Source: an uncultured Spirochaetaceae bacterium (GTDB taxonomy: Bacteria > Spirochaetota > Spirochaetia > Sphaerochaetales > Sphaerochaetaceae). From it: a stretch of DNA of 64,000 nt. Made by a program: the position numbers and the translations under genes. The notes beneath the pieces were generated by a model. That model was not told the origin of the DNA. It searched no databases and saw nothing but the letters and a program-made list of their open reading frames with translations. This document shows, piece after piece, positions 10,248 to 20,759 of the stretch (position 1 is its first letter; every line of letters begins with the position of its first letter). The stretch lies in the NCBI GenBank assembly GCA_944392965.1, contig CALXYM010000001.1:186001-250000 (forward strand), read 5' to 3'.

Positions 10248-10326
10248 GCTGCTCTGTCGCCATCAGAGCAGAGTTCGGTGTGGAAGCCTCTTTGCCTGAT
10301 GATGACAGAGCAAAAAAGGCTTCCAC
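10248..10326 (+). repeat. Inverted repeats before a transposase fragment
   Basis: Two hairpin-forming repeats occur in tandem: CTGCTCTG/CAGAGCAG (10249-10256 and 10264-10271) and GTGGAAGCCT/AGGCTTCCAC (10280-10289 and 10317-10326). They lie immediately before the zinc-ribbon transposase fragment and may belong to its terminal or regulatory region; no matching copy is seen at the far side because that end is lost. Confidence 0.4.
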
Positions 10327-10328
10327 CA

Positions 10329-10703
10329 ATGAAAGAAAATATCTATTCCCGTTCAAGGAGAAGGACCCCCTGGACAGACAAGGCGTCAGTGACGCCGCTT
10401 GAGTCGTTTCTCGACAACCATGCGGCAGAAGAATACAGCCGCAGGCATCTACGGATATCTGATACGGAGGAAAGCGAGTTGCTCAACACATTTGAGCCAG
10501 CGGCCTGCCCATACTGCAAGAAAGGGAGATACAAGGGATATGGCTATCTGCGTACTGGCCTGAGGCGATACCGCTGCCTTGATTGCGGAAAGACATTCAC
10601 AATCCTTACAGGAACACTTTTCGAGAACCATAAGCAGCCGATAAGCGAATGGATAGACACCTGCCTTGAGCTGTTCTCTGAGCAGAGCTTCGAGGCAATC
10701 TCC
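10329..10703 (+). pseudogene. Zinc-ribbon transposase, N-terminal fragment
   Basis: About 125 residues of a transposase N terminus. A zinc ribbon (CPYC ... CLDC) is followed by FTILTGTLFENHKQPISEWI, a combination typical of IS1/IS1595-type transposases. The catalytic domain is missing: the sequence runs into an IS630-type element on the opposite strand near 10700, where an IS630 C-terminal motif begins. The family call at superfamily level is reasonable; which IS family it is cannot be decided. Confidence 0.6.
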
Positions 10704-11735
10704 AAGGCACTGTCTTCCGAGAGCTGAAAGCTCGCATTCTGCAATGTTCAGCCATGAGCCATGCTTGGGAGTGTAATGTATTTCCAGCTTCTGGGCGATA
10801 CAAAACGCCTCCTGGGGAGGAAATGCTTCATATAGCGATGAAATCCTGTGGGTATTCAGGTTGTCCATTACAAGTACGATCTTATCTGCACCGGGATAAT
10901 CGATGTCCACGAGCTCCCTTATCTGCTCAGCCCAGTCATTCTTTGTCCTTCTCTCATGAGCAATGGCTCTCCTCCAGCCTGCAAGCGGCTCGGTGAAAAG
11001 GAAGATGCTGGCTGTTCCATTGCGATGTATTCATTATCGTAATGCATCACGCCATTCGACGTCCTGAAGCCATGCCTTGTTTCCGCAAGCATCTGCACCG
11101 GCTTCTCATCCATGCAGATCACGGGAATAAGCGGATTGTATGGGCGTGCATACACTGACAGAACGTCTTCCATATTGGCGACGAATGCCGCATCAAGATC
11201 TTTCGGTATTGTCCAGCACTTCCTCAGGTGAGGTGAAAGCTCGTTTTTTTTAATACCCTGTCGACAGTTGTGTGCGATACGCTCTCAAGAATGCCAAGCT
11301 CCACAATCCTATCCGCAAGAAGCCTCAGCGTCCACGATTCATAGCCTTTAGGCGGAGCTGAGCATGCCAGCGCAATTATCCTTGCTTCTACATCTCCAGT
11401 CACTTTTGCGGGTACTGGAGGTGTCTCTCTCTTCTTCCTGTACAGCGTTGCCTCGAAGCCCTTCTCTGCATAGCTCGTTCTCACGTTTTGCACAGTCGTA
11501 GGCGTTGTATGATAGATGGCTGCGACTTCCTGTACCGTCATAGGCTTCTTGCCGTTTCTGTCAGATGCAAGGAGGATATTCGCTCTAAGGATTGTCCTTG
11601 CAGGAGCCTTACCCTTGCTTGTGATATCCAGCAGCTTATTCCGTTCTTCATCATTCAGTTCTATGAGGTATTTTGTTGTCGGCATACTCCATCCATTCCT
11701 TCAAGTATAGTCTTTCTTAAAGAATAGTGGACAGA
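10700..11735 (-). mobile_element. Decayed IS630-family insertion sequence
   Basis: An IS630 transposase is readable in three pieces on the minus strand: 11685-11224 (helix-turn-helix, MTVQEVAAIYHTTPTTVQNV), 11173-about 11005 (DDE first motif VICMDEKPVQML) and about 11005-10700 (second motif VLVMDNLNTH and third block HGSWLNIAECE). The first frame break is at an A8 run (minus strand, 11251-11244), where a -1 shift restores the frame and might be programmed slippage. The second, near 11008, is a one-base lesion. The C terminus is cut off at the junction with the zinc-ribbon transposase, so the copy should be inactive. Its outer right end is probably near 11700-11735. Confidence 0.75.
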
Positions 11736-12032
11736 ACCATTTTATACAAGATTTGGATATTACAAACTACTAGAAAATATTTATGATAACACTTTACTTC
11801 AGTTTGTATTTGTTATATTGAATGCTATTCATATTAATAATATAACATATTTTAACAAAGCTATAGGTTTATTTTCTTTTCCTTTAGAAAAATTACGTAT
11901 AATAAAATTTTAATTATTTATTTTCTAATATTGACACATATTTTATTGTGGTAGAAGTTTTTATTAAATATTTATTTCTTAGACTATATCTGGAAGATAA
12001 AATTTGACATATTGGGCTAATTATTTTAAACT
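11736..12032 (+). promoter_or_regulatory. AT-rich spacer with promoter of the RiPP-like cluster
   Basis: Roughly 300 bases of extremely AT-rich DNA separate the IS remnant from the radical SAM gene; no gene is seen in them. At the right end TTGACA (12004-12009), a 17-bp spacer and TAAACT (12027-12032) form a plausible promoter that would start transcription near 12039, some 18 nt before the proposed GTG start at 12057. A second TTGACA at 11931 lacks a matching -10 box. Confidence 0.5.
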
Positions 12033-12056
12033 TTGTTAAAAAAAGGGAGAAGTAAG

Positions 12057-13361
12057 GTGTATTTTGGAACTGAAGAAATTTTCTTTGTTGATATTATTGA
12101 TGACTCCGATAATATTTTAGTATATGTTCCTCTTCGAAGTTATTTAGCTTTGGTGAATAAGAATTTTAAGCAAAAAATGTTGAAGTCACAGGACTTTTCC
12201 AATAAGTTTTTATCATATTTAAAGAAGAAAAACTATATAGATCCAGTTGTATTGCATAAGAAATCTGTCGATATTCTTCCTCAATTATCGATTCCGGTTA
12301 CGGATGGGTGTAATTTAAGATGTGAGTATTGTTATTTTCGAGCTGGAGATGAAGATAAAAAAACAGTCCAGAGCAAAGAAGAACTAGCAAGCTATGTAGA
12401 GGCATATTTCAATAGAATTGAAAATTATCCCATAAAAAATAGTTCGAACATAATAGATGTAGCAATAGCTGGAGGGGGCGAACCTACTAGCCAGTTTGAA
12501 ACTATGAAATATGTTGTAGAATTAATTGAGGAAAAATGTTTGCATTTAGGATATAAAGTACGCTTTAATATGCCCACAAATGGATTTTTTGGAGATGAAA
12601 TCAGAGATTTTATAGTAAAGCATTTTTCTCAAGTTTCTTTATCTTTTGATGGCCCAGAAGATATCCAGAATTTTCAGCGTCCTACAAGGAGTGGAGGAAA
12701 AAGTTTCAAAAAAGTATATGAAACTGCAAAATTTTTTTACGATAGGGGATTATCATTTGCGTTTCGATCAACAATAACAGATTATAGTTTATATAGAATA
12801 CCTGAAATTTTAGATTTTTTTAATAAAGATTTTCCCCAAAAAATAATTGGTATTGAGGCAATGAATTTGTATGGAAGAGCAATAGGCAATTCAAAAGTAT
12901 CGCCTCCTAATCCGGTAATATTTGCAGATAAACTTTTAGAGGCATATGAATATGCCCATCGGAAAAAAATTAGCATTAAAACCGCAGGGGTGGGAAAGTA
13001 TGAGCAATTAAGAACTGTTTTTTGTGGTTCTGTAGGTATTCCAAATTGGACGATTACAACAGATGGTAGAATAACATCATGTACTCGTGATAACTTACCG
13101 GAAATATTTTCCTTCGGGCATTATGATAGAAATGAAAAAAAATTAAAATTGGATTTGAACAAAATAAAAAAAGTTCGTGACTTGAATATATTTAATTATC
13201 CCGAGTGTGCAGATTGTTTTTGCAAATATAATTGTGCTGGTGATTGCCCTGATTTAAGGGTGTCTAATATGATAAATTGTGATGCCACAAAGAAAGTTGC
13301 AGCATATGTTTTATTGAGTAAACTAAATAATAAGGAGATTTTATATGGAAGCAGTTGTTGA
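12057..13361 (+). CDS. Radical SAM/SPASM peptide maturase
   Basis: Radical SAM enzyme of 434 residues with a SPASM domain, the architecture of enzymes that cross-link or otherwise modify ribosomal peptides. The SAM-cluster cysteines are in CNLRCEYCYF (Cys85, 89, 92). The SPASM region shows CX13GX4C (CGSVG...GRITSC) and then CX2CX5CX3C (CADCFCKYNCAGDC), as expected for two auxiliary 4Fe-4S clusters. The N-terminal 75 residues, including a YVPLRSYLALVN stretch, may be the peptide-binding part. The GTG at 12057 has GGGAGA 6 nt before it; a TTG at 12033 is in frame but has no site. The last 17 nt overlap the start of a small Cys-rich peptide gene, its likely substrate. A+T content is far above the flanking chromosome. 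Confidence 0.9.
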   Translation: MYFGTEEIFFVDIIDDSDNILVYVPLRSYLALVNKNFKQKMLKSQDFSNKFLSYLKKKNYIDPVVLHKKSVDILPQLSIPVTDGCNLRCEYCYFRAGDEDKKTVQSKEELASYVEAYFNRIENYPIKNSSNIIDVAIAGGGEPTSQFETMKYVVELIEEKCLHLGYKVRFNMPTNGFFGDEIRDFIVKHFSQVSLSFDGPEDIQNFQRPTRSGGKSFKKVYETAKFFYDRGLSFAFRSTITDYSLYRIPEILDFFNKDFPQKIIGIEAMNLYGRAIGNSKVSPPNPVIFADKLLEAYEYAHRKKISIKTAGVGKYEQLRTVFCGSVGIPNWTITTDGRITSCTRDNLPEIFSFGHYDRNEKKLKLDLNKIKKVRDLNIFNYPECADCFCKYNCAGDCPDLRVSNMINCDATKKVAAYVLLSKLNNKEILYGSSC

Positions 13362-13518
13362 TGTCGGGTTAGAACAGGAATTACAGAACCTTATTCTTTC
13401 AGAAGTAGATTTGCAATATCACAAAAAACAAAATGTGTTACTTTCTTGCTCAAGTGATGGTTGCTCAAGAATTAGTTATTGTTCTTGTGATTGCAATGAC
13501 GGTAGTGGAACATGGTGA
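13345..13518 (+). CDS. Putative RiPP precursor peptide, Cys/Ser-rich
   Basis: A 57-codon gene with a strong ribosome-binding site (AAGGAG at 13332-13337, 7 nt before the ATG). It overlaps the end of the maturase gene by 17 nt in another frame, so translation is probably coupled. Residues 1-33 look like a leader (hydrophobic/acidic, ELQNLILSEVDLQYHKK), and residues 34-57 like a core with Cys at 35, 40, 46, 48 and 50, many Ser, three Asp and two Gly just before the last residues, ending NDGSGTW. Short blocks are SCSSDGC and SYCSCDC. Position next to a SPASM maturase, the split leader/core composition and the C-terminal Trp all fit a modified peptide. No Gly-Gly cleavage site is visible. The function is inference; the reading frame and site are seen. 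Confidence 0.75.
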   Translation: MEAVVDVGLEQELQNLILSEVDLQYHKKQNVLLSCSSDGCSRISYCSCDCNDGSGTW

Positions 13519-13566: not shown

Positions 13567-14400
13567 ATGAATCTTACATTTAATGAAATTGAAAGACATG
13601 TAAAAGATTTTCTTTTTAGAATAAATGCTAGTGGTGGTTTTTTTGAGCACCGAGTTCTTATTATTAGCCGACACATAAATAAAAAATATGTTAGTTTGTT
13701 TGGCCGTTTTTCAAACGATAAAGAATTCTTATTTAAAACTTTTGATCTTTTTCTTTGGGCATATTTAACAGATTTAACTTTGGATGCCTTTTCTTCTGGA
13801 GAATTTAATCCTTGGGAAATACCTAAAGCAACTTTTGGTGCCATGATTTTGTTCAATAATTATGTAGAGTGGATGAAAAGTAATTATGAAGAACGGTTTG
13901 TTCTTATTTTTTTTCATTTATATAATCAGCAAATGAAATACCAGATTCTAGAAAAACAATGGGAAATGCCATCTGAGTATTGTTCTTTTTATATCAATCC
14001 GGAAGAATATTACAAAAAGCAAATTGTTTTGTTGTTCCCAATAATTATTATTGATTTGCCGAAAAAAGTAAAAAACTTTTCAATAAAATTTCTTAAAGAT
14101 TATTACTCTTATTTACTTATTAGTGATGATTTAAATGATTTAGCATGGGATATACAGTCCAAAACACTGAGTTATGTAATCGCTAATTTTTATGAACGAA
14201 AAAAAAAGTTACCATCTCTTAATTCGGATTTTCATATACTTTTTAATGATATCTTACATGTCTTGTCTATTTTGCAATCAAAGCTTGAAAAAGCAAGTAA
14301 GCTTTTAAATATTGATAATTGGATCTGTGAAGAAGTTTTCTTTTCAATATCATATGAAGAATGGACAAATAAAATTAATCAAGATCGAAAACCATTGTGA
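13567..14400 (+). CDS. Isoprenoid-synthase-like protein (possible prenyltransferase)
   Basis: An all-helical-looking protein of 277 residues. One segment, LKDYYSYLLISDDLNDLAWD (about residues 176-195), resembles the second Asp-rich helix of trans-isoprenyl diphosphate synthases, with a DDxxD (Asp187, 188, 191) and a further Asp195; the glutamine that usually precedes it is Leu here. A reduced first motif DLTLD (Asp69 and Asp73) fits the other metal site. The family includes chain-elongating enzymes and ComQ, which prenylates a Trp of the ComX peptide. Its place between a Trp-ending peptide and two polyprenol-kinase-like genes supports a prenyl role. The assignment is by motif only and could be wrong; otherwise it is an unrecognised helical protein. 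Confidence 0.45.
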   Translation: MNLTFNEIERHVKDFLFRINASGGFFEHRVLIISRHINKKYVSLFGRFSNDKEFLFKTFDLFLWAYLTDLTLDAFSSGEFNPWEIPKATFGAMILFNNYVEWMKSNYEERFVLIFFHLYNQQMKYQILEKQWEMPSEYCSFYINPEEYYKKQIVLLFPIIIIDLPKKVKNFSIKFLKDYYSYLLISDDLNDLAWDIQSKTLSYVIANFYERKKKLPSLNSDFHILFNDILHVLSILQSKLEKASKLLNIDNWICEEVFFSISYEEWTNKINQDRKPL

Positions 14401-14488: not shown

Positions 14489-17470
14489 ATGGGTAAAGTA
14501 AAGAGAATAAAAACTGATTATACTATAAAAAATGTTTTTGAGAACCAAGAGTTGAAAGAGTCAAAAGTTCCTTTTTTTTCCTGTTTTGTAGATAGAGAAA
14601 ACTATCGGAATGATTTTTGGTATTCTCATTATATTCCAATGAAAAACAAAATTGAAAATGGAGTAGAACAAAATAAATGTGACATTATACATTTTTATGG
14701 AGATCCTGGCGTTGGTAAAACAGCTTTGATTAATAAATTAAAAAAGGAAATGGATGAACAAAGTCCTAATGGTCAAGGAGATTATTTGTATTTTGATTTT
14801 CATGGTTTTTCCGGAGAACTTTATGATTTGATTCAAAAATTAATTTTAGACTTACGAAAAAAATTTAAGTTTGAATTCCCATTAACAGAATATGCTAGTA
14901 TGAAAATTTCGGTTGAATTTAAAGATACAGCTCCTCTGTCTCGATCTTTTAGGGATGTTATACAAAATAATAGAGGGGTGGGACTTATCCGGACAATTAT
15001 AAAAAGAACATCTTTGGGAAATATAATTTATACGATAACAGACGTTATCGATTATATTGAAAAAAATTATGACATTGGTTTTGTAAGGACAATAAAAAAA
15101 CAATTACAAGATAAAGCTTTTAAAGAAAGTGTAAATTATATGAGAAAGATGAATGCATCTCATATATTGGAGAAAATTCATGTCTTTTTTGCGATTGATT
15201 TAAAAATGAATCTTATTAAGAGAGGAAAACCATTTGTCATTTTTTTAGATACATTTGATCAATATATTTGTGTAAATGAAACTCAACAAAAAGAGAAAGA
15301 TTGGTGGCTAAGAAATCATAATGATGGAATAATATTAGCTGTACCTAATGTTATCTGGGTGATTGCTAGTCGAAGTGGTTTGGATAAAGTAGAAAATGTT
15401 GGGTTAGACTCTTGGAAAAGTTTTGAAATCGATGAGCAAAAGATTAATTTTTTTGATAAAGATAATTCCATAAAATTGGTGAAATCCGAAGGACTTTCAG
15501 ATTGCGAAGTAGATGAAAATTTTTCTAGAATTTCAAAGTGCTCTCCTTTTTTTTTAAATCTTTTAGTTCAATTGTTCTATTCTATAGAGCCTAACACATT
15601 ATTGAAAGAAGGTTTTTTTTCTAATACATGCGACTTTACAGGGATTTTAAAATATTATTTTTCTCTTTTTGACTTGAAGGTACAAAAATTAATAAGTGTC
15701 CTTGCTCTTTTTGAAGAGGGATGGTCAAGTGAAATGATATTAAAAATAAGGGAAAAGCTTCCTTATTTTGTACAAGAAATCTATGAACAAATAATTCACA
15801 ATAAAATACTTGTTATACATTCGAAGGAGAATGATTGTTATTTTATTATTTCATATTTGAAAAATATTACGTCTAATGTTTTGGACGAAGCTGAAAAACA
15901 AGAAGTTTATCAAATTATAATGAATTATTATGCTAATAATTTGGATAGGAACACTTCGCCGTATGAACAATTAAATAAACTTATAAAATTCACGTTGGTA
16001 ATAGAGACCCCTTATGAAATTTTTTGCTCGATAGTTTTAAAGTATTTAATTGATTTAGTAATAAATATACGTTTATATGAACTCAATCAGCTATTGTGTA
16101 TATATGAAAATAGCGAAATATATAAATACAAGAAAAATTATGAATTATATTTGTCTATTTTTGCCTTACGCAATATTTATAATAATCTTAAAACTAGAAG
16201 AATAGATGAAGATTCTTTGGCATTCATGATTTCTGCATTATCTAATCAGGACATAGACATGAGTACAAGATGTATTTTATGTATGTCAATTAGCTATGAA
16301 GAACTATTGAAAGGTCGTTTTTTAGAAGCTATTGATTATGGGATGAAAATACAAAATATTGTCATACAGGATAAAGAAAGATTGATTTCAATATCGGCTA
16401 TAGCAAACGAAATAATTTCTAATGGATACTTATCGCTTTGGGAATATAAAAAAGGACTACAATTAGGAAGAGATGGATATGAGATGCGAAAAATACTCTT
16501 TGGAAAGAATCATTGGTATACTTTATCCTCTTTATGCAATATATCTAAGGCTTTATATGGATTGGGAAATTTCAAGCAAGCATATAATATTGATTGTTAT
16601 GGCTATAACAATGCTTATTTAAGTTTAGGCGAAAGCCATCCATTAACTTTACTTTTTCTTGAAAGATTAGCAGAAGATTTATCACAATTAGGCGATTATT
16701 ACAAAGCATATAGTTATAAAGAAAGAATAATGGAAATAAGGGAATCTTTGTTTGGTAAAAATAGCCCACAATTTTATTCTTCTCTATATGCTATTGCCGT
16801 TGCACATTCCTATCTAGGAGATTTTAAAGGTGCTCTTAATTTAAAGAGGAAAGTATATTCTTTTAGAAGAGAGGTTGAAGGAGAGAAACATCCACAGACA
16901 ATTAATTCTTTATATGGAATAGGAGTAGAATATTCTAAGCTAGGGCAATCTAAAGAGGCTTTAAAATACAAAAAGAAAGCATATGAAATGAGAGTTATTG
17001 TGTTAGGAAGAAATCATTTTGATACTATTTCTGCTTATTTTGGAATAGGGGAAGACCTTCTAAAATTAGGAAATATTTCAGAAGCCCAAAAGATATTTCA
17101 AGAAACCCTTGAAAATAAAATTTCATTATTAGGAGAAATGCATCCTGATGTTTTATCTGTTTATTATCAAATTGCGATTGCTTATTATAAAGCAGGTGCT
17201 CTTTCCTTAGCTTGGCACATTAGCCTAACAACTTTGAGAAAACGCAAAAAGATTTTTGGAGGCCTTCATCCAATGGTTTTTGCTTCTTCTTATTTATCTG
17301 GAAAAATTCTTATGGCAATGAAAAGATATTCTCATGCTTATAATTTTTTTAAATCAGCTTATGAGGGTGCTTTGAATGTATTAGGAATTCTTCATCCAGA
17401 TACAGAAAAATATCATAATGCATACTTGCAAATTCTTGGCTTGAAGAGAGGAGAAAAAAATGATGCATGA
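14489..17470 (+). CDS. STAND-type ATPase with C-terminal TPR repeats
   Basis: A 993-residue signal-transduction ATPase. Walker A is GDPGVGKTAL (Lys77, Thr78); a Walker B-like IFLDTFDQY has Asp254, and VIWVIASRSGLDKV follows like a sensor strand. From about 620 to 980 the chain consists of kinesin-light-chain-like TPR repeats of about 42 residues, recognisable by repeated LGxxHPxT/Y and GxxxxAxxxxxxAY patterns. STAND ATPases of this shape bind a ligand through the repeats and switch by ATP-driven assembly. Here it could regulate the peptide cluster, sense its product or act as an immunity or defence protein. It overlaps the next gene by 11 nt. No effector domain is obvious at the N terminus (first 50 residues). 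Confidence 0.8.
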   Translation: MGKVKRIKTDYTIKNVFENQELKESKVPFFSCFVDRENYRNDFWYSHYIPMKNKIENGVEQNKCDIIHFYGDPGVGKTALINKLKKEMDEQSPNGQGDYLYFDFHGFSGELYDLIQKLILDLRKKFKFEFPLTEYASMKISVEFKDTAPLSRSFRDVIQNNRGVGLIRTIIKRTSLGNIIYTITDVIDYIEKNYDIGFVRTIKKQLQDKAFKESVNYMRKMNASHILEKIHVFFAIDLKMNLIKRGKPFVIFLDTFDQYICVNETQQKEKDWWLRNHNDGIILAVPNVIWVIASRSGLDKVENVGLDSWKSFEIDEQKINFFDKDNSIKLVKSEGLSDCEVDENFSRISKCSPFFLNLLVQLFYSIEPNTLLKEGFFSNTCDFTGILKYYFSLFDLKVQKLISVLALFEEGWSSEMILKIREKLPYFVQEIYEQIIHNKILVIHSKENDCYFIISYLKNITSNVLDEAEKQEVYQIIMNYYANNLDRNTSPYEQLNKLIKFTLVIETPYEIFCSIVLKYLIDLVINIRLYELNQLLCIYENSEIYKYKKNYELYLSIFALRNIYNNLKTRRIDEDSLAFMISALSNQDIDMSTRCILCMSISYEELLKGRFLEAIDYGMKIQNIVIQDKERLISISAIANEIISNGYLSLWEYKKGLQLGRDGYEMRKILFGKNHWYTLSSLCNISKALYGLGNFKQAYNIDCYGYNNAYLSLGESHPLTLLFLERLAEDLSQLGDYYKAYSYKERIMEIRESLFGKNSPQFYSSLYAIAVAHSYLGDFKGALNLKRKVYSFRREVEGEKHPQTINSLYGIGVEYSKLGQSKEALKYKKKAYEMRVIVLGRNHFDTISAYFGIGEDLLKLGNISEAQKIFQETLENKISLLGEMHPDVLSVYYQIAIAYYKAGALSLAWHISLTTLRKRKKIFGGLHPMVFASSYLSGKILMAMKRYSHAYNFFKSAYEGALNVLGILHPDTEKYHNAYLQILGLKRGEKNDA

Positions 17471-18098
17471 TTTCGTACTTTTAATTACATCTGTTTTATT
17501 TGTTTCGTCTCTTATTCTAGTAGGTTTTATGCTTATGTGCACAAGAAAACTTGATACAGAAGTCGCTAGAAAGTTGGTTCATATTCTCAGTTCTTTCTGG
17601 TGTCTTTTTCTGTGTGAGTTTAGAAATATATGGTGGGCTTTGATAGGTCCTATAATTTTTATTATTATTAATACTTGGTTCGCATTTAGTAATGTCAGTA
17701 TAAATGTAGGATTTTCCGACAGGAGAAGAAATATAGGATTTTCATTATATCCTGTTTCTGCTTTTTTTCTTACGTTTCTTCTCTATACCAAAAGAATCGA
17801 TATGCAGGTTTTTTTAACTAGTTTTTTCATTTTAGGATTTGGTGATGGATGTGCCTGTATTTTAGGGATAAGGCTGGGTAAGCATAAATATAAGAGTATC
17901 GGAGGTTTTAAAAGTATAGAAGGCTCTATGAGTTTTTTTATCATATCTTTTATTATATGCATATTATTACAATTCAGTCTTTTTTATGCTTGTCTTATCG
18001 CTGTTGTTACGACACTTGCAGAAGCTTTTTCTTTTAAAGGATTTGATAATTTTATTATTCCTTTAACTGTGGTTATTATGTGTTTGCTAATAGGATAA
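17460..18098 (+). CDS. Polyprenol/phytol-kinase-like membrane protein (VTE5/SEC59 type)
   Basis: Membrane protein of 212 residues, about six or seven segments, in the dolichol kinase/phytol kinase/CDP-diglyceride-synthase-like family. Characteristic are RKLVHILSS after the first segment, GFGDGCACILGIRLGKHK, the SIEGSMSFF block and the ending FKGFDNFIIPL. Members use CTP or a related nucleotide to phosphorylate a polyprenol. It overlaps the STAND gene by 11 nt, has GAGAGGAG just upstream, and is followed 3 nt later by a DUF92 gene. The pair resembles the plant VTE5-VTE6 couple that turns phytol into phytyl diphosphate, suggesting supply of a prenyl donor or lipid carrier. Confidence 0.75.
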   Translation: MMHDFVLLITSVLFVSSLILVGFMLMCTRKLDTEVARKLVHILSSFWCLFLCEFRNIWWALIGPIIFIIINTWFAFSNVSINVGFSDRRRNIGFSLYPVSAFFLTFLLYTKRIDMQVFLTSFFILGFGDGCACILGIRLGKHKYKSIGGFKSIEGSMSFFIISFIICILLQFSLFYACLIAVVTTLAEAFSFKGFDNFIIPLTVVIMCLLIG

Positions 18099-18101
18099 TG
18101 T

Positions 18102-18911
18102 ATGGGAAATCTGTCAAATATGTATTCATTTATTTTGATTATAGCAATAATGCTGTTTGTATTTTTTGCACATTGTTTTAAAACATCGGGCTATTTTGCT
18201 CTTTTTTTACTTTTATTGTTTAGTTCTTTTATTGGTGGTTATGCTTTTATCATTTTTTATTCATTTTTTTTAATTTCTTCTTATTTCACAGGAAAGTTTA
18301 CATCTCATACTTCCGATGTTTCCCAAATTGTAGCCAAAACAGGCCCTCGTGATTGGGTTCAAGTTTTTTCCAATGGTTTTCCTTCTTTTCTTGCATTGTG
18401 TTTATATGCGTATACTGAAAAATATATATTTATAATTGTTTTTACTGTAGCGGTAGGCCAAGCATGCGCAGATACATGGGCAAGTGATATTGGAATTCTT
18501 TCTTCAAAAGAACCAATTTCTATTTTTACTCTTCAGCCTGTTCGACGTGGAGAATCTGGAGGTATAACTTTTCTCGGAACGATAGCTAGTCTTTGTTCTG
18601 CTACTATTTTTGCGATATTATATAACATTATATTTTTCAGCACATATGTTAATATTAAATATACATTCATTATCATAATAATAATTGAATGTGGAGTTTT
18701 TCTTGATAGCTTTTTGGGTGCTACGTTTCAAATTCATTATTTAGCAGAAAGTAACGGAGTATTTTATTTAAGTGAGATTAGTCGAAATTCTGATGGTTCA
18801 TTTAGAAAGAAAGCTAGAGGTTTTAAATTCTTTACAAATGACATGGTCAATTTAGTAAGTGGTTTGATTTCTGTTTTTTTGTCATGGTTTTTTTGTTGCT
18901 TAGTTAGTTAA
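18102..18911 (+). CDS. DUF92 membrane protein (VTE6/TMEM19 type)
   Basis: DUF92 family protein, 269 residues, with about six membrane segments. The family's two signature stretches are present: ACADTWASDIGILS, equivalent to the GADTxASExG motif, and RRGESGGITFLGTIASL. DSFLGATFQ later in the chain also fits. The plant member VTE6 phosphorylates phytyl monophosphate to the diphosphate. Its coupling to a VTE5-like gene 3 nt upstream makes a two-step polyprenol-to-diphosphate route likely here; the actual alcohol is unknown. It ends 19 bp from the convergent YcaO gene. Confidence 0.8.
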   Translation: MGNLSNMYSFILIIAIMLFVFFAHCFKTSGYFALFLLLLFSSFIGGYAFIIFYSFFLISSYFTGKFTSHTSDVSQIVAKTGPRDWVQVFSNGFPSFLALCLYAYTEKYIFIIVFTVAVGQACADTWASDIGILSSKEPISIFTLQPVRRGESGGITFLGTIASLCSATIFAILYNIIFFSTYVNIKYTFIIIIIIECGVFLDSFLGATFQIHYLAESNGVFYLSEISRNSDGSFRKKARGFKFFTNDMVNLVSGLISVFLSWFFCCLVS

Positions 18912-18929: not shown

Positions 18930-20759
18930 CTAAAAGAAACTGATCATTTTTTGTTTTAAAACTAATTTTATTTTTTCTATTTTTTGATATGAACAAAAAG
19001 AATTTAATTCGCATTCATTGATGCAATTTATGTGATTGCACTCTATTTGAGGGAAAAAAGGTATTTTTTTTGTGTGTCCGTCTAAAATTTTAAGAATGGA
19101 ATTAACTACAGAAATATTTGTAAAAGAACTTAATATATTCTCTAGAAAGTTTCTATTACGATTATGTAAATGAGCATCAAAATATAAAATGCATATGGTT
19201 AATATCAGGTCTAATTCTTTAGTTATATTATTTAGATTTTCTTTTAGCTGTGTTAATCGCCTGAGGCCTTCTTCCCATTTGTTAAGCCTTGCACAACACA
19301 TTATCGTAATGAATGTATTGTTAAGGATGGGTGAACTAAAAGGAAAAATTTTGAGAGATAATTCATGTTTCAGTAAAATCGAAGGCGTATTTTGCCCAAT
19401 AAGGGGTGCAGTTATATCTAGTAATGAAAGTAAAGTTTCCGCATCTTGCATAGATGTAAATGTATTATTATGCCATCGTTCGGATATGTAGTTATAAGTA
19501 TTTCCTATGCGGAAACGCATTTCTGTCATATGTGATGGAAACATTTCACTAAGGGATGGAATGATTATATGAAATGATGGAAAACCTAGATAAGATACGT
19601 CATGTATTAATATATCCAAATTCTGGTTCAAAACTTTCTTTATTGCCCATGCGCATAAAGTATTGTTATCTCCTTGTGGATTTTCAGAAGGGGTATAAGG
19701 TATAGATGATTCTAAAAGTATTTCAGGAGGATAACTGCCTTTTCCCATTTTATACGAGTTGAAAAAATTTTGATAAGAAAGATTAGTGTTGCTAAAATCA
19801 ATTTTAGAATATTGTGAAAATTGATTTAGGCTTTTTCCTTGCATACATTCTGTAAGGCATCGTTCAACTGCTATATAAAATTTGGGATGGGCTCCTAAAC
19901 GAATTCCATATGTTCCTTTTTCCCTATTTTGTATGATAAGAACTGCAACAGGATAATCTACTAAAGTGGAAGCATCTTTTATGCTGAGTTTATATTTCCT
20001 ATTTTTATTAATTTTTAAAAGTATTTTATACAGCTCCCTGTAAGGCTTAAAGAAACTTAGAGGGACATTAGGTATTTCTTTAGGCCCTGACAACAACATT
20101 TTCTGAACTTTGCGTTCAAAAATCTCCGATATGCCTTGGATTAAAGCTTCTTCTTTTGTGTTGCCTGCACACATTCCATTGGAACCATTTAAATCTAGTA
20201 ATTTTAAATAAGGGAGGTAATAAGTTCTTTTTTCTTTAATACTTTCATATGGGAGACAAAGTAAACCATGGCGTTTATATTTTATAAAATCATCGCATCC
20301 GATTTTTATAAGCCATTTTTCAATAGATGAATGATCTATACTTAATAATTTTTTATCTTGACGTAAGTTTTTGAGCCAAGGATCTTCTTGTTCCACATAA
20401 CTTGTAATATCTAAAAACTTTTCATCTGGATAGTATTCAAATCCATAAAGCTTTTGGGTCTGTTGTTTTGTATAGCTGGGAAGTAGATAATTATTTTGTA
20501 GCCGTTCCATAAGTTCTGCTAGGGCACTAGCCTCAGCTAATTCCTTTGTCATTCCTTTCCCGTTTTGCCCTATGTTTAATCCTTTTATTGTTACTCTGAC
20601 GGAGTATAAGTCTTTTGAGTTAATGTTGTACCAAGTTTCTTCTGTATCTATACCTAGATTTGAAAGAATACTTTTTATTTTTATAATAGTTTCCTGTGGC
20701 GTATTTTCTTTATAATGTGTGCAAAAATAAAAATTTTCTTGTTCAATTAATTCTTTCAT
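18930..20759 (-). CDS. YcaO-domain protein, E. coli YcaO-like
   Basis: YcaO ATP-dependent enzyme of 609 residues. The three nucleotide/Mg-binding motifs are complete: ASALAELMER (Ser78, Glu82, Glu85, Arg86), EIFERKVQ (Glu212 to Gln219) and RCLTECMQ (Arg300, Glu304, Gln307). NGMCAGNTKEEA and the helical repeat region after about residue 430 match the stand-alone E. coli YcaO layout and length (about 590) rather than cyclodehydratases fused to an E1-like partner. YcaO enzymes activate backbone amides to make azolines, thioamides or amidines. No partner (E1-like, dehydrogenase, TfuA) is in the window. Unusual is a C-terminal cysteine cluster, CX4CX3CX5C, near residue 580. It is convergent with the radical SAM operon but shares its high A+T content. 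Confidence 0.88.
   Translation of the reverse strand: MKELIEQENFYFCTHYKENTPQETIIKIKSILSNLGIDTEETWYNINSKDLYSVRVTIKGLNIGQNGKGMTKELAEASALAELMERLQNNYLLPSYTKQQTQKLYGFEYYPDEKFLDITSYVEQEDPWLKNLRQDKKLLSIDHSSIEKWLIKIGCDDFIKYKRHGLLCLPYESIKEKRTYYLPYLKLLDLNGSNGMCAGNTKEEALIQGISEIFERKVQKMLLSGPKEIPNVPLSFFKPYRELYKILLKINKNRKYKLSIKDASTLVDYPVAVLIIQNREKGTYGIRLGAHPKFYIAVERCLTECMQGKSLNQFSQYSKIDFSNTNLSYQNFFNSYKMGKGSYPPEILLESSIPYTPSENPQGDNNTLCAWAIKKVLNQNLDILIHDVSYLGFPSFHIIIPSLSEMFPSHMTEMRFRIGNTYNYISERWHNNTFTSMQDAETLLSLLDITAPLIGQNTPSILLKHELSLKIFPFSSPILNNTFITIMCCARLNKWEEGLRRLTQLKENLNNITKELDLILTICILYFDAHLHNRNRNFLENILSSFTNISVVNSILKILDGHTKKIPFFPQIECNHINCINECELNSFCSYQKIEKIKLVLKQKMISFF

Follow-up and report, generated by a model that had tools for sequence, protein, structure and literature searches.

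We found that the small open reading frame at 13345-13518 of the window (the 64,000-nucleotide stretch of DNA analysed here) is almost certainly a genuine precursor peptide, and that it belongs to a unit of three genes. The precursor, a radical SAM/SPASM maturase, and a third gene co-occur in two distant loci, where the core of the peptide is conserved and its leader has diverged. We regard the frame as a genuine precursor of a new type of radical-SAM RiPP; the conserved partner points to prenylation, and this chemistry remains unproven. As a full explanation of the locus we favor, with reservations, a RiPP operon with a three-gene core that yields a cross-linked and then prenylated peptide. 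No activity has been shown. The features were:

12045-12049, + strand: Shine-Dalgarno GGGAG of the maturase (read from the sequence; start GTG at 12057)
12057-13361, + strand: radical SAM/SPASM peptide maturase, 434 aa (Pfam Radical_SAM, E 7e-17)
13332-13338, + strand: Shine-Dalgarno AAGGAGA of the precursor (read from the sequence)
13345-13518, + strand: precursor peptide, 57 aa, ATG start, MEAVVDVGLEQELQNLILSEVDLQYHKKQNVLLSCSSDGCSRISYCSCDCNDGSGTW; leader about residues 1-34, core about residues 35-57 (CSSDGCSRISYCSCDCNDGSGTW)
13567-14400, + strand: class I isoprenoid-synthase-fold protein, 277 aa (AF2 model, Foldseek, VIA; homologue in the related locus L027)
14489-17470, + strand: STAND-type P-loop ATPase with TPR repeats, 993 aa (TPR_12, E 1e-34; weak AAA_16/NB-ARC)
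17460-18098, + strand: VTE5/SEC59-like polyprenol (phytol) kinase, second copy in the genome (homology, motifs)
18102-18911, + strand: DUF92/VTE6-like isoprenyl-phosphate kinase, second copy (PF01940, E 6e-47)
18930-20759, - strand: YcaO-like ATPase (PF02624, E 3e-40; NF040716, 198 bits, cutoff 700)

The sequence-only reading had described an overlooked precursor gene here, and its coordinates, strong ribosome-binding site, 17-nt overlap with the maturase (which ends at 13361), five-Cys C half, and terminal GSGTW were all confirmed. The AAGGAGA lies 6-7 nt ahead of the ATG. The Cys are residues 35, 40, 46, 48, and 50, the peptide contains 8 Ser, and its sole Trp, Trp57, is the C-terminal residue. 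None of the 1288 ORFs of at least 50 aa from 300 shuffles of the surrounding island had at least five Cys in the last 25 residues, a simple mononucleotide shuffle that is indicative only. The peptide matched no Pfam or NCBIfam family and no solved structure. Standard gene finders had been expected to skip the frame; given its length and strong ribosome-binding site, it could well get called.

Searching viral contigs with the window maturase retrieved its closest relative (42% identical over 410 residues) in L027, a locus of the 51-kb IMG/VR contig IMGVR_UViG_3300048574_000532. Directly upstream of the L027 maturase there is a 62-codon frame preceded by the ribosome-binding site AGGAGG. Its product ends in SGCDRDGCNRINFCGCDCNDSSGTW and the window peptide in LSCSSDGCSRISYCSCDCNDGSGTW; the two share 19 of 40 residues (BLASTP, E 2e-15). 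The last 23 residues have all Cys and the terminal Trp in common (...DGC.RI.[YF]C.CDCND.SGTW-stop), and D38, D49, and D52 of the core are kept as well, including the spacing C48-x3-D52, with position 45 being Tyr in the window and Phe in L027. Of the 19 shared residues, 12 are encoded by different codons. Over the final 23 codons the differences fall 7/6/15 on codon positions 1/2/3, a bias that is expected of translated sequence, and in the preceding 17 codons they fall 9/10/13. Judged by its codons, the peptide core is conserved translated sequence.

A conserved core with a leader that is free to vary is the signature of a RiPP precursor. Thus, the features sought in such a precursor (a small frame by a maturase, a conserved core, and a variable leader) are all present, on the strength of one relative only. 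The L027 frame, which stands beside the closest related maturase and keeps the whole core, supports the earlier interpretation as a radical-SAM/SPASM precursor. It was also predicted that a small frame with conserved Cys spacing and Trp would be found behind related maturases: the frame was conserved, with its Cys spacing and Trp, in the only close relative found, but its position was not, since the peptide lies downstream of the maturase in the window and upstream in L027. The picture of two genes held for the precursor and the maturase and was incomplete, as it missed the third conserved gene at 13567-14400. No genes other than these three were found common to both loci; the STAND/TPR, VTE5/VTE6, and YcaO genes are absent beside the L027 core. 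Because the third gene of the conserved unit has an isoprenoid-synthase fold, the chemistry to be expected is a different one.

L027 contains endolysin and tail-fibre families and thus looks like a phage. Its RiPP cassette adjoins genes for a GIY-YIG nuclease, an Mrr endonuclease, and DNA methyltransferase/restriction functions (L027:10207-15429, - strand), and for this reason it appears to be mobile cargo. When the cassette was compared with plasmids at the DNA level, a nuclease gene was the sole match.

At the level of the maturase, the CxxxCxxC motif comprises residues 85/89/92 and the SPASM Cys are residues 323, 342, 384, 387, 393, 397, and 408. All of them are kept in L027, and the protein qualifies as a SPASM radical-SAM peptide maturase. 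Its nearest profiles, none of them anywhere near its cutoff, were those of PapB, SCIFF, and similar enzymes that cross-link peptides; the top NCBIfam profile, the PapB ranthipeptide maturase (NF047865), reached 98.2 bits for a cutoff of 340, and membership was not met. The best PDB relative was 5wgg, which we take to be CteB. Upstream of the gene there is a promoter-like TTGACA-17-TAAACT at 12004-12032, in a scan that was not above shuffles. A role as a defense gene was considered and rejected: PADLOC recognised no defense system, and the similarity to viperin is that of radical SAM proteins in general.

Other radical-SAM loci were met on plasmids. Edwardsiella (L024:6316-6495) and Salmonella (L026:6076-6249) plasmids carry radical-SAM RiPP operons with peptides FEFLCCRGG...GGRW / GGHW, together with a glycosyltransferase-like gene, an ABC transporter, and an S8 protease. 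A prenyltransferase was ruled out as the extra gene of these Trp-ending loci, since that gene is weakly glycosyltransferase-like. On a Methylocystis iwaonis plasmid, a 128-aa frame that is extremely rich in Cys, Asp, and Glu (L023:7170-7556, + strand) and missing from the PLSDB gene table immediately follows a radical-SAM gene that shares 34% identity with the window maturase. Finally, a Candidatus Chlorohelix plasmid groups three radical-SAM genes, a 98-aa protein, and a WD40 protein in one cluster (L022:7989-14548).

The 277-aa product of the third gene matched nothing in Pfam or NCBIfam. Using its AF2 model, the PDB matches listed by Foldseek were class I isoprenoid synthases throughout (prob 1.00), VIA-align matched geranyltransferases, MoeN5, and related enzymes at Z 13.5 over 232 residues, and the two best matches in a viral structure library were trans-prenyltransferases. 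The homologue in L027 (9265-10140, after the maturase; about 30% identity, tblastn E 5e-23) gave this class in every one of its listed Foldseek PDB matches, and these are only supportive because its model has low confidence. Both models are modest (pLDDT 67 for the window and 56.5 for L027), and all-helical bundles easily reach middling Z values. Apart from L027, no convincing relatives were found in plasmids, the genus, the phylum, or viral contigs.

Two D-rich motifs sit within long helices, as expected: the FARM D69xxxD73 (D82/D86 in L027) and the SARM D187DxxD191xxxD195 (window numbering), which is kept in both homologues. PalQ has the same DxxxD pattern at D89/D93 (FARM) and D200/D204 (SARM) (PMC10853753). 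The FARM lacks the second Asp of the canonical DDxxD and no RRG follows it, from which we infer that the protein is unlike a normal prenyl diphosphate synthase. At the position three residues ahead of the SARM, where PalQ, ComQ, and Ord1 have a Gln (PalQ Q197) implicated in Trp recognition (PMC13290415, PMC10853753), there is a Leu in both proteins (Leu184 in the window, Leu193 in L027), and this leaves the prenyl acceptor unproven. Of the features tested for the ComQ/PalQ group, the isoprenoid-synthase fold and the first D-rich motif were thus met, and the upstream Gln was not; as a putative member of that group, the enzyme fails in this one feature. On the modeled fold it is probably a ComQ/PalQ-like peptide prenyltransferase, and that it may work like PalQ is plausible by analogy.

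The operon lies in a stretch from about 11.75 to 21 kb with 27-31% GC, compared with a background of 44%, and this stretch was probably acquired. Just outside its left edge there are apparent IS remnants (10278-11685, identified by reading only), with a zinc-ribbon transposase fragment on the + strand and frame-broken IS630-like pieces on the - strand. The STAND/TPR protein scored 151.7 bits against NF040586 FxsT, below the cutoff of 300, and did not pass as FxsT; it could possibly be a sensor, an immunity protein, or an effector. A genus relative harbors an array of STAND/TPR genes about 30% identical to it (L069, G010:C24:14073-18665); its first matched stretch contains two TAA codons.

The VTE5-like gene overlaps the TPR gene by 11 nt, presents the motifs RKLVH and GDG..LG..LGKHK..KSIEGS (read from the sequence), and encodes a protein with up to 34% identity to the partner of DUF92 in genus relatives. 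DUF92 was found in 46 of 48 genus genomes, and in each of the seven loci inspected the two VTE5/VTE6-like genes are neighbors. The genus has a single such pair, to which this genome adds the one in the operon; its housekeeping DUF92 paralogue is on contig C25 (G000:C25:17035-17781). From their distribution, such pairs look like housekeeping genes in the genus. The DUF92 domain and the paired kinase meet what is expected of a VTE5/VTE6 kinase pair, with VTE5 assigned by motif and homology only and the activity inferred. In plants, phytyl diphosphate arises from phytol through phosphorylation by VTE5 and VTE6, so an extra pair next to an isoprenoid-type transferase hints, by inference, at a supply of donor. 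The YcaO-like gene forms the end of the low-GC island and was not found in the other 47 genomes of the genus; its role in the pathway is uncertain. It is of the S12-modification type, well under the NCBIfam cutoff, and has a C-terminal Cys cluster, CNHINCINECELNSFC. No protease or exporter was identified in the window or in the L027 locus.

In the pathway that we infer, the leader would dock on the maturase, which would form radical cross-links from the core Cys, the likeliest being ranthipeptide-type thioethers to conserved Asp. PapB joins Cys to Asp or Glu at spacings of 0-6 (PMC9413430). With D38, D49, and D52 conserved, Cys-Asp thioethers are our leading guess, and C48-x3-D52 as well as D38 and D49 may provide the partners. 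The isoprenoid-synthase-fold protein would then attach an allylic isoprenyl group, with Trp57 as the likeliest acceptor in the peptide, as ComQ and PalQ do. All the characterized trans-IDS-like peptide prenyltransferases (ComQ, ChrPC, PalQ) target Trp (PMC13290415), and PalQ requires it exactly at the C terminus (PMC10853753). In the window only, the extra VTE5/VTE6-like pair could turn an isoprenol into the isoprenyl diphosphate donor, and the STAND/TPR protein might sense the product or serve immunity. The pathway would yield a cross-linked peptide with a C-terminal lipid, acting as a signal or an antimicrobial. These steps are not equally secure. We are confident that the maturase cross-links Cys, and we think it fairly probable that the isoprenoid-fold enzyme acts on this precursor. 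That it acts on Trp57, with prenyl transfer itself inferred, falls just short of what we would assert; this Trp is invariant in both loci, and only two loci are known. Donor supply by the VTE5/VTE6 pair is a tentative proposal.

An ordinary radical-SAM RiPP (of the ranthipeptide, sactipeptide, or cyclophane type), with the maturase cross-linking as its only chemistry, seems unlikely and still deserves weight. Trp57 would itself be cross-linked or serve as a recognition residue, and the isoprenoid-fold protein would make a separate terpene or prenyl diphosphate, for example for self-protection. This would agree with the resemblance of the maturase to PapB, SCIFF, and other peptide maturases, and with the unrelated Edwardsiella and Salmonella plasmid RiPPs, which also end in Trp (GGRW/GGHW) with no prenyltransferase-like gene recognised. 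However, the third gene is among the only three common to two distant loci, and we infer from its FARM without the second Asp and its missing RRG that it is not a normal prenyl diphosphate synthase. The Leu that replaces the Trp-recognition Gln lends some support to this explanation and also to another, that the enzyme prenylates Cys, Tyr, or another core residue instead of Trp57. Five core Cys and Tyr45 are available as acceptors, but the maturase is expected to use the Cys, Tyr45 is not invariant (Phe in L027), and the characterized enzymes of this type all use Trp (PMC13290415). Hence, we consider it improbable.

We give even less credit to a hybrid pathway in which the island YcaO would install an azoline or thioamide on core Cys or Ser besides the radical-SAM chemistry. 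Although the core is rich in both residues and the YcaO gene is in the low-GC island and in no other genus genome searched, it lies on the opposite strand, most resembles the S12-modification type, and is missing next to the L027 core; the neighbors examined include neither a cyclodehydratase nor a TfuA partner for it. Lastly, a spurious small frame that resembles L027 by chance or through contamination is scarcely credible and already contradicted. There is only one other copy in the collections searched; yet 19 of 40 residues are identical through mostly different codons, and both loci have the same conserved neighbors and a strong ribosome-binding site.

The three-gene unit is rare. Neither the 48 genomes of the genus nor the 393 of the phylum yielded a second copy, and the viral collections gave one contig with the unit, that of L027; two further matches of a relaxed viral scan were discarded as one phage protein gene read in the wrong frame. 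No close relatives of the maturase were found in 60 related and 393 phylum genomes (the best was 32% over the catalytic part), and its other tblastn matches in phages and plasmids were below 35% identity, with unrelated neighborhoods where examined. Of the 22 matches to the pattern C-x-C-x-C-x-D-x2-G-x-W-stop among about 85,000 species genomes, none lay in a plausible precursor frame and none had a maturase or isoprenoid-type gene nearby. A maturase profile run on about 740 genomes around loci titled Clostridiales and Roseiflexaceae found nothing; no positive control was included.

Returning to the cross-linked and prenylated peptide, it may represent a new class of RiPPs: a SPASM enzyme would cross-link the five-Cys core, the isoprenoid-synthase-fold enzyme would lipidate the C-terminal Trp of that peptide, a dedicated VTE5/VTE6 pair would provide the donor in the host of the window, and the core cassette would also be carried by phages; we suggest this combination with some hesitation. 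If true, radical-SAM cross-linking and ComQ/PalQ-type prenylation, which we found described only separately, would share one ribosomal peptide and give a rigid, lipid-tailed scaffold. We found no description of this pairing in the open-access literature. The third enzyme would define a new clade of prenyltransferases, which may either do without the usual Gln when recognising Trp or have another target.

Among known systems, FxSxx-COOH systems with AP-ATPase/TPR genes (PMC7159879) share the radical-SAM/SPASM enzyme, a small variable precursor with a conserved C terminus, and, in the window only, the STAND-type ATPase/TPR gene. In contrast, the window precursor ends in GSGTW and does not meet the FxSxx terminus, the TPR protein is under the FxsT cutoff and outside the L027 unit, and no metallopeptidase was identified. 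PapB/PapA ranthipeptides provide the nearest NCBIfam profile, and the window core has C48-x3-D52 and further Cys/Asp pairs. However, this one conserved Cys-x3-Asp is not a CX3D repeat array, and the window adds an isoprenoid-synthase-fold gene and a C-terminal Trp. As far as the account of them in PMC13290415 goes, ChrPC-type prenylated and cyclized RiPPs also use an isoprenoid-synthase-type enzyme that acts on Trp of a ribosomal peptide, whereas in the window no separate cyclase domain was seen and a radical-SAM partner is found instead.

PalQ-PalX and ComQ-ComX of Paenibacillus alvei and Bacillus (PMC10853753, PMC13290415) have a small precursor adjoining an isoprenoid-synthase-fold enzyme, as found here, with Trp at the very C terminus of PalX, DxxxD in both the FARM and the SARM of PalQ, and little sequence similarity to known synthases. 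They differ in that the window has no recognised NHLP leader and no histidine kinase in the operon, and the window and L027 enzymes have Leu for the Gln before the SARM. Moreover, the unit of the window and L027 adds to this arrangement a radical-SAM/SPASM maturase and a five-Cys core.
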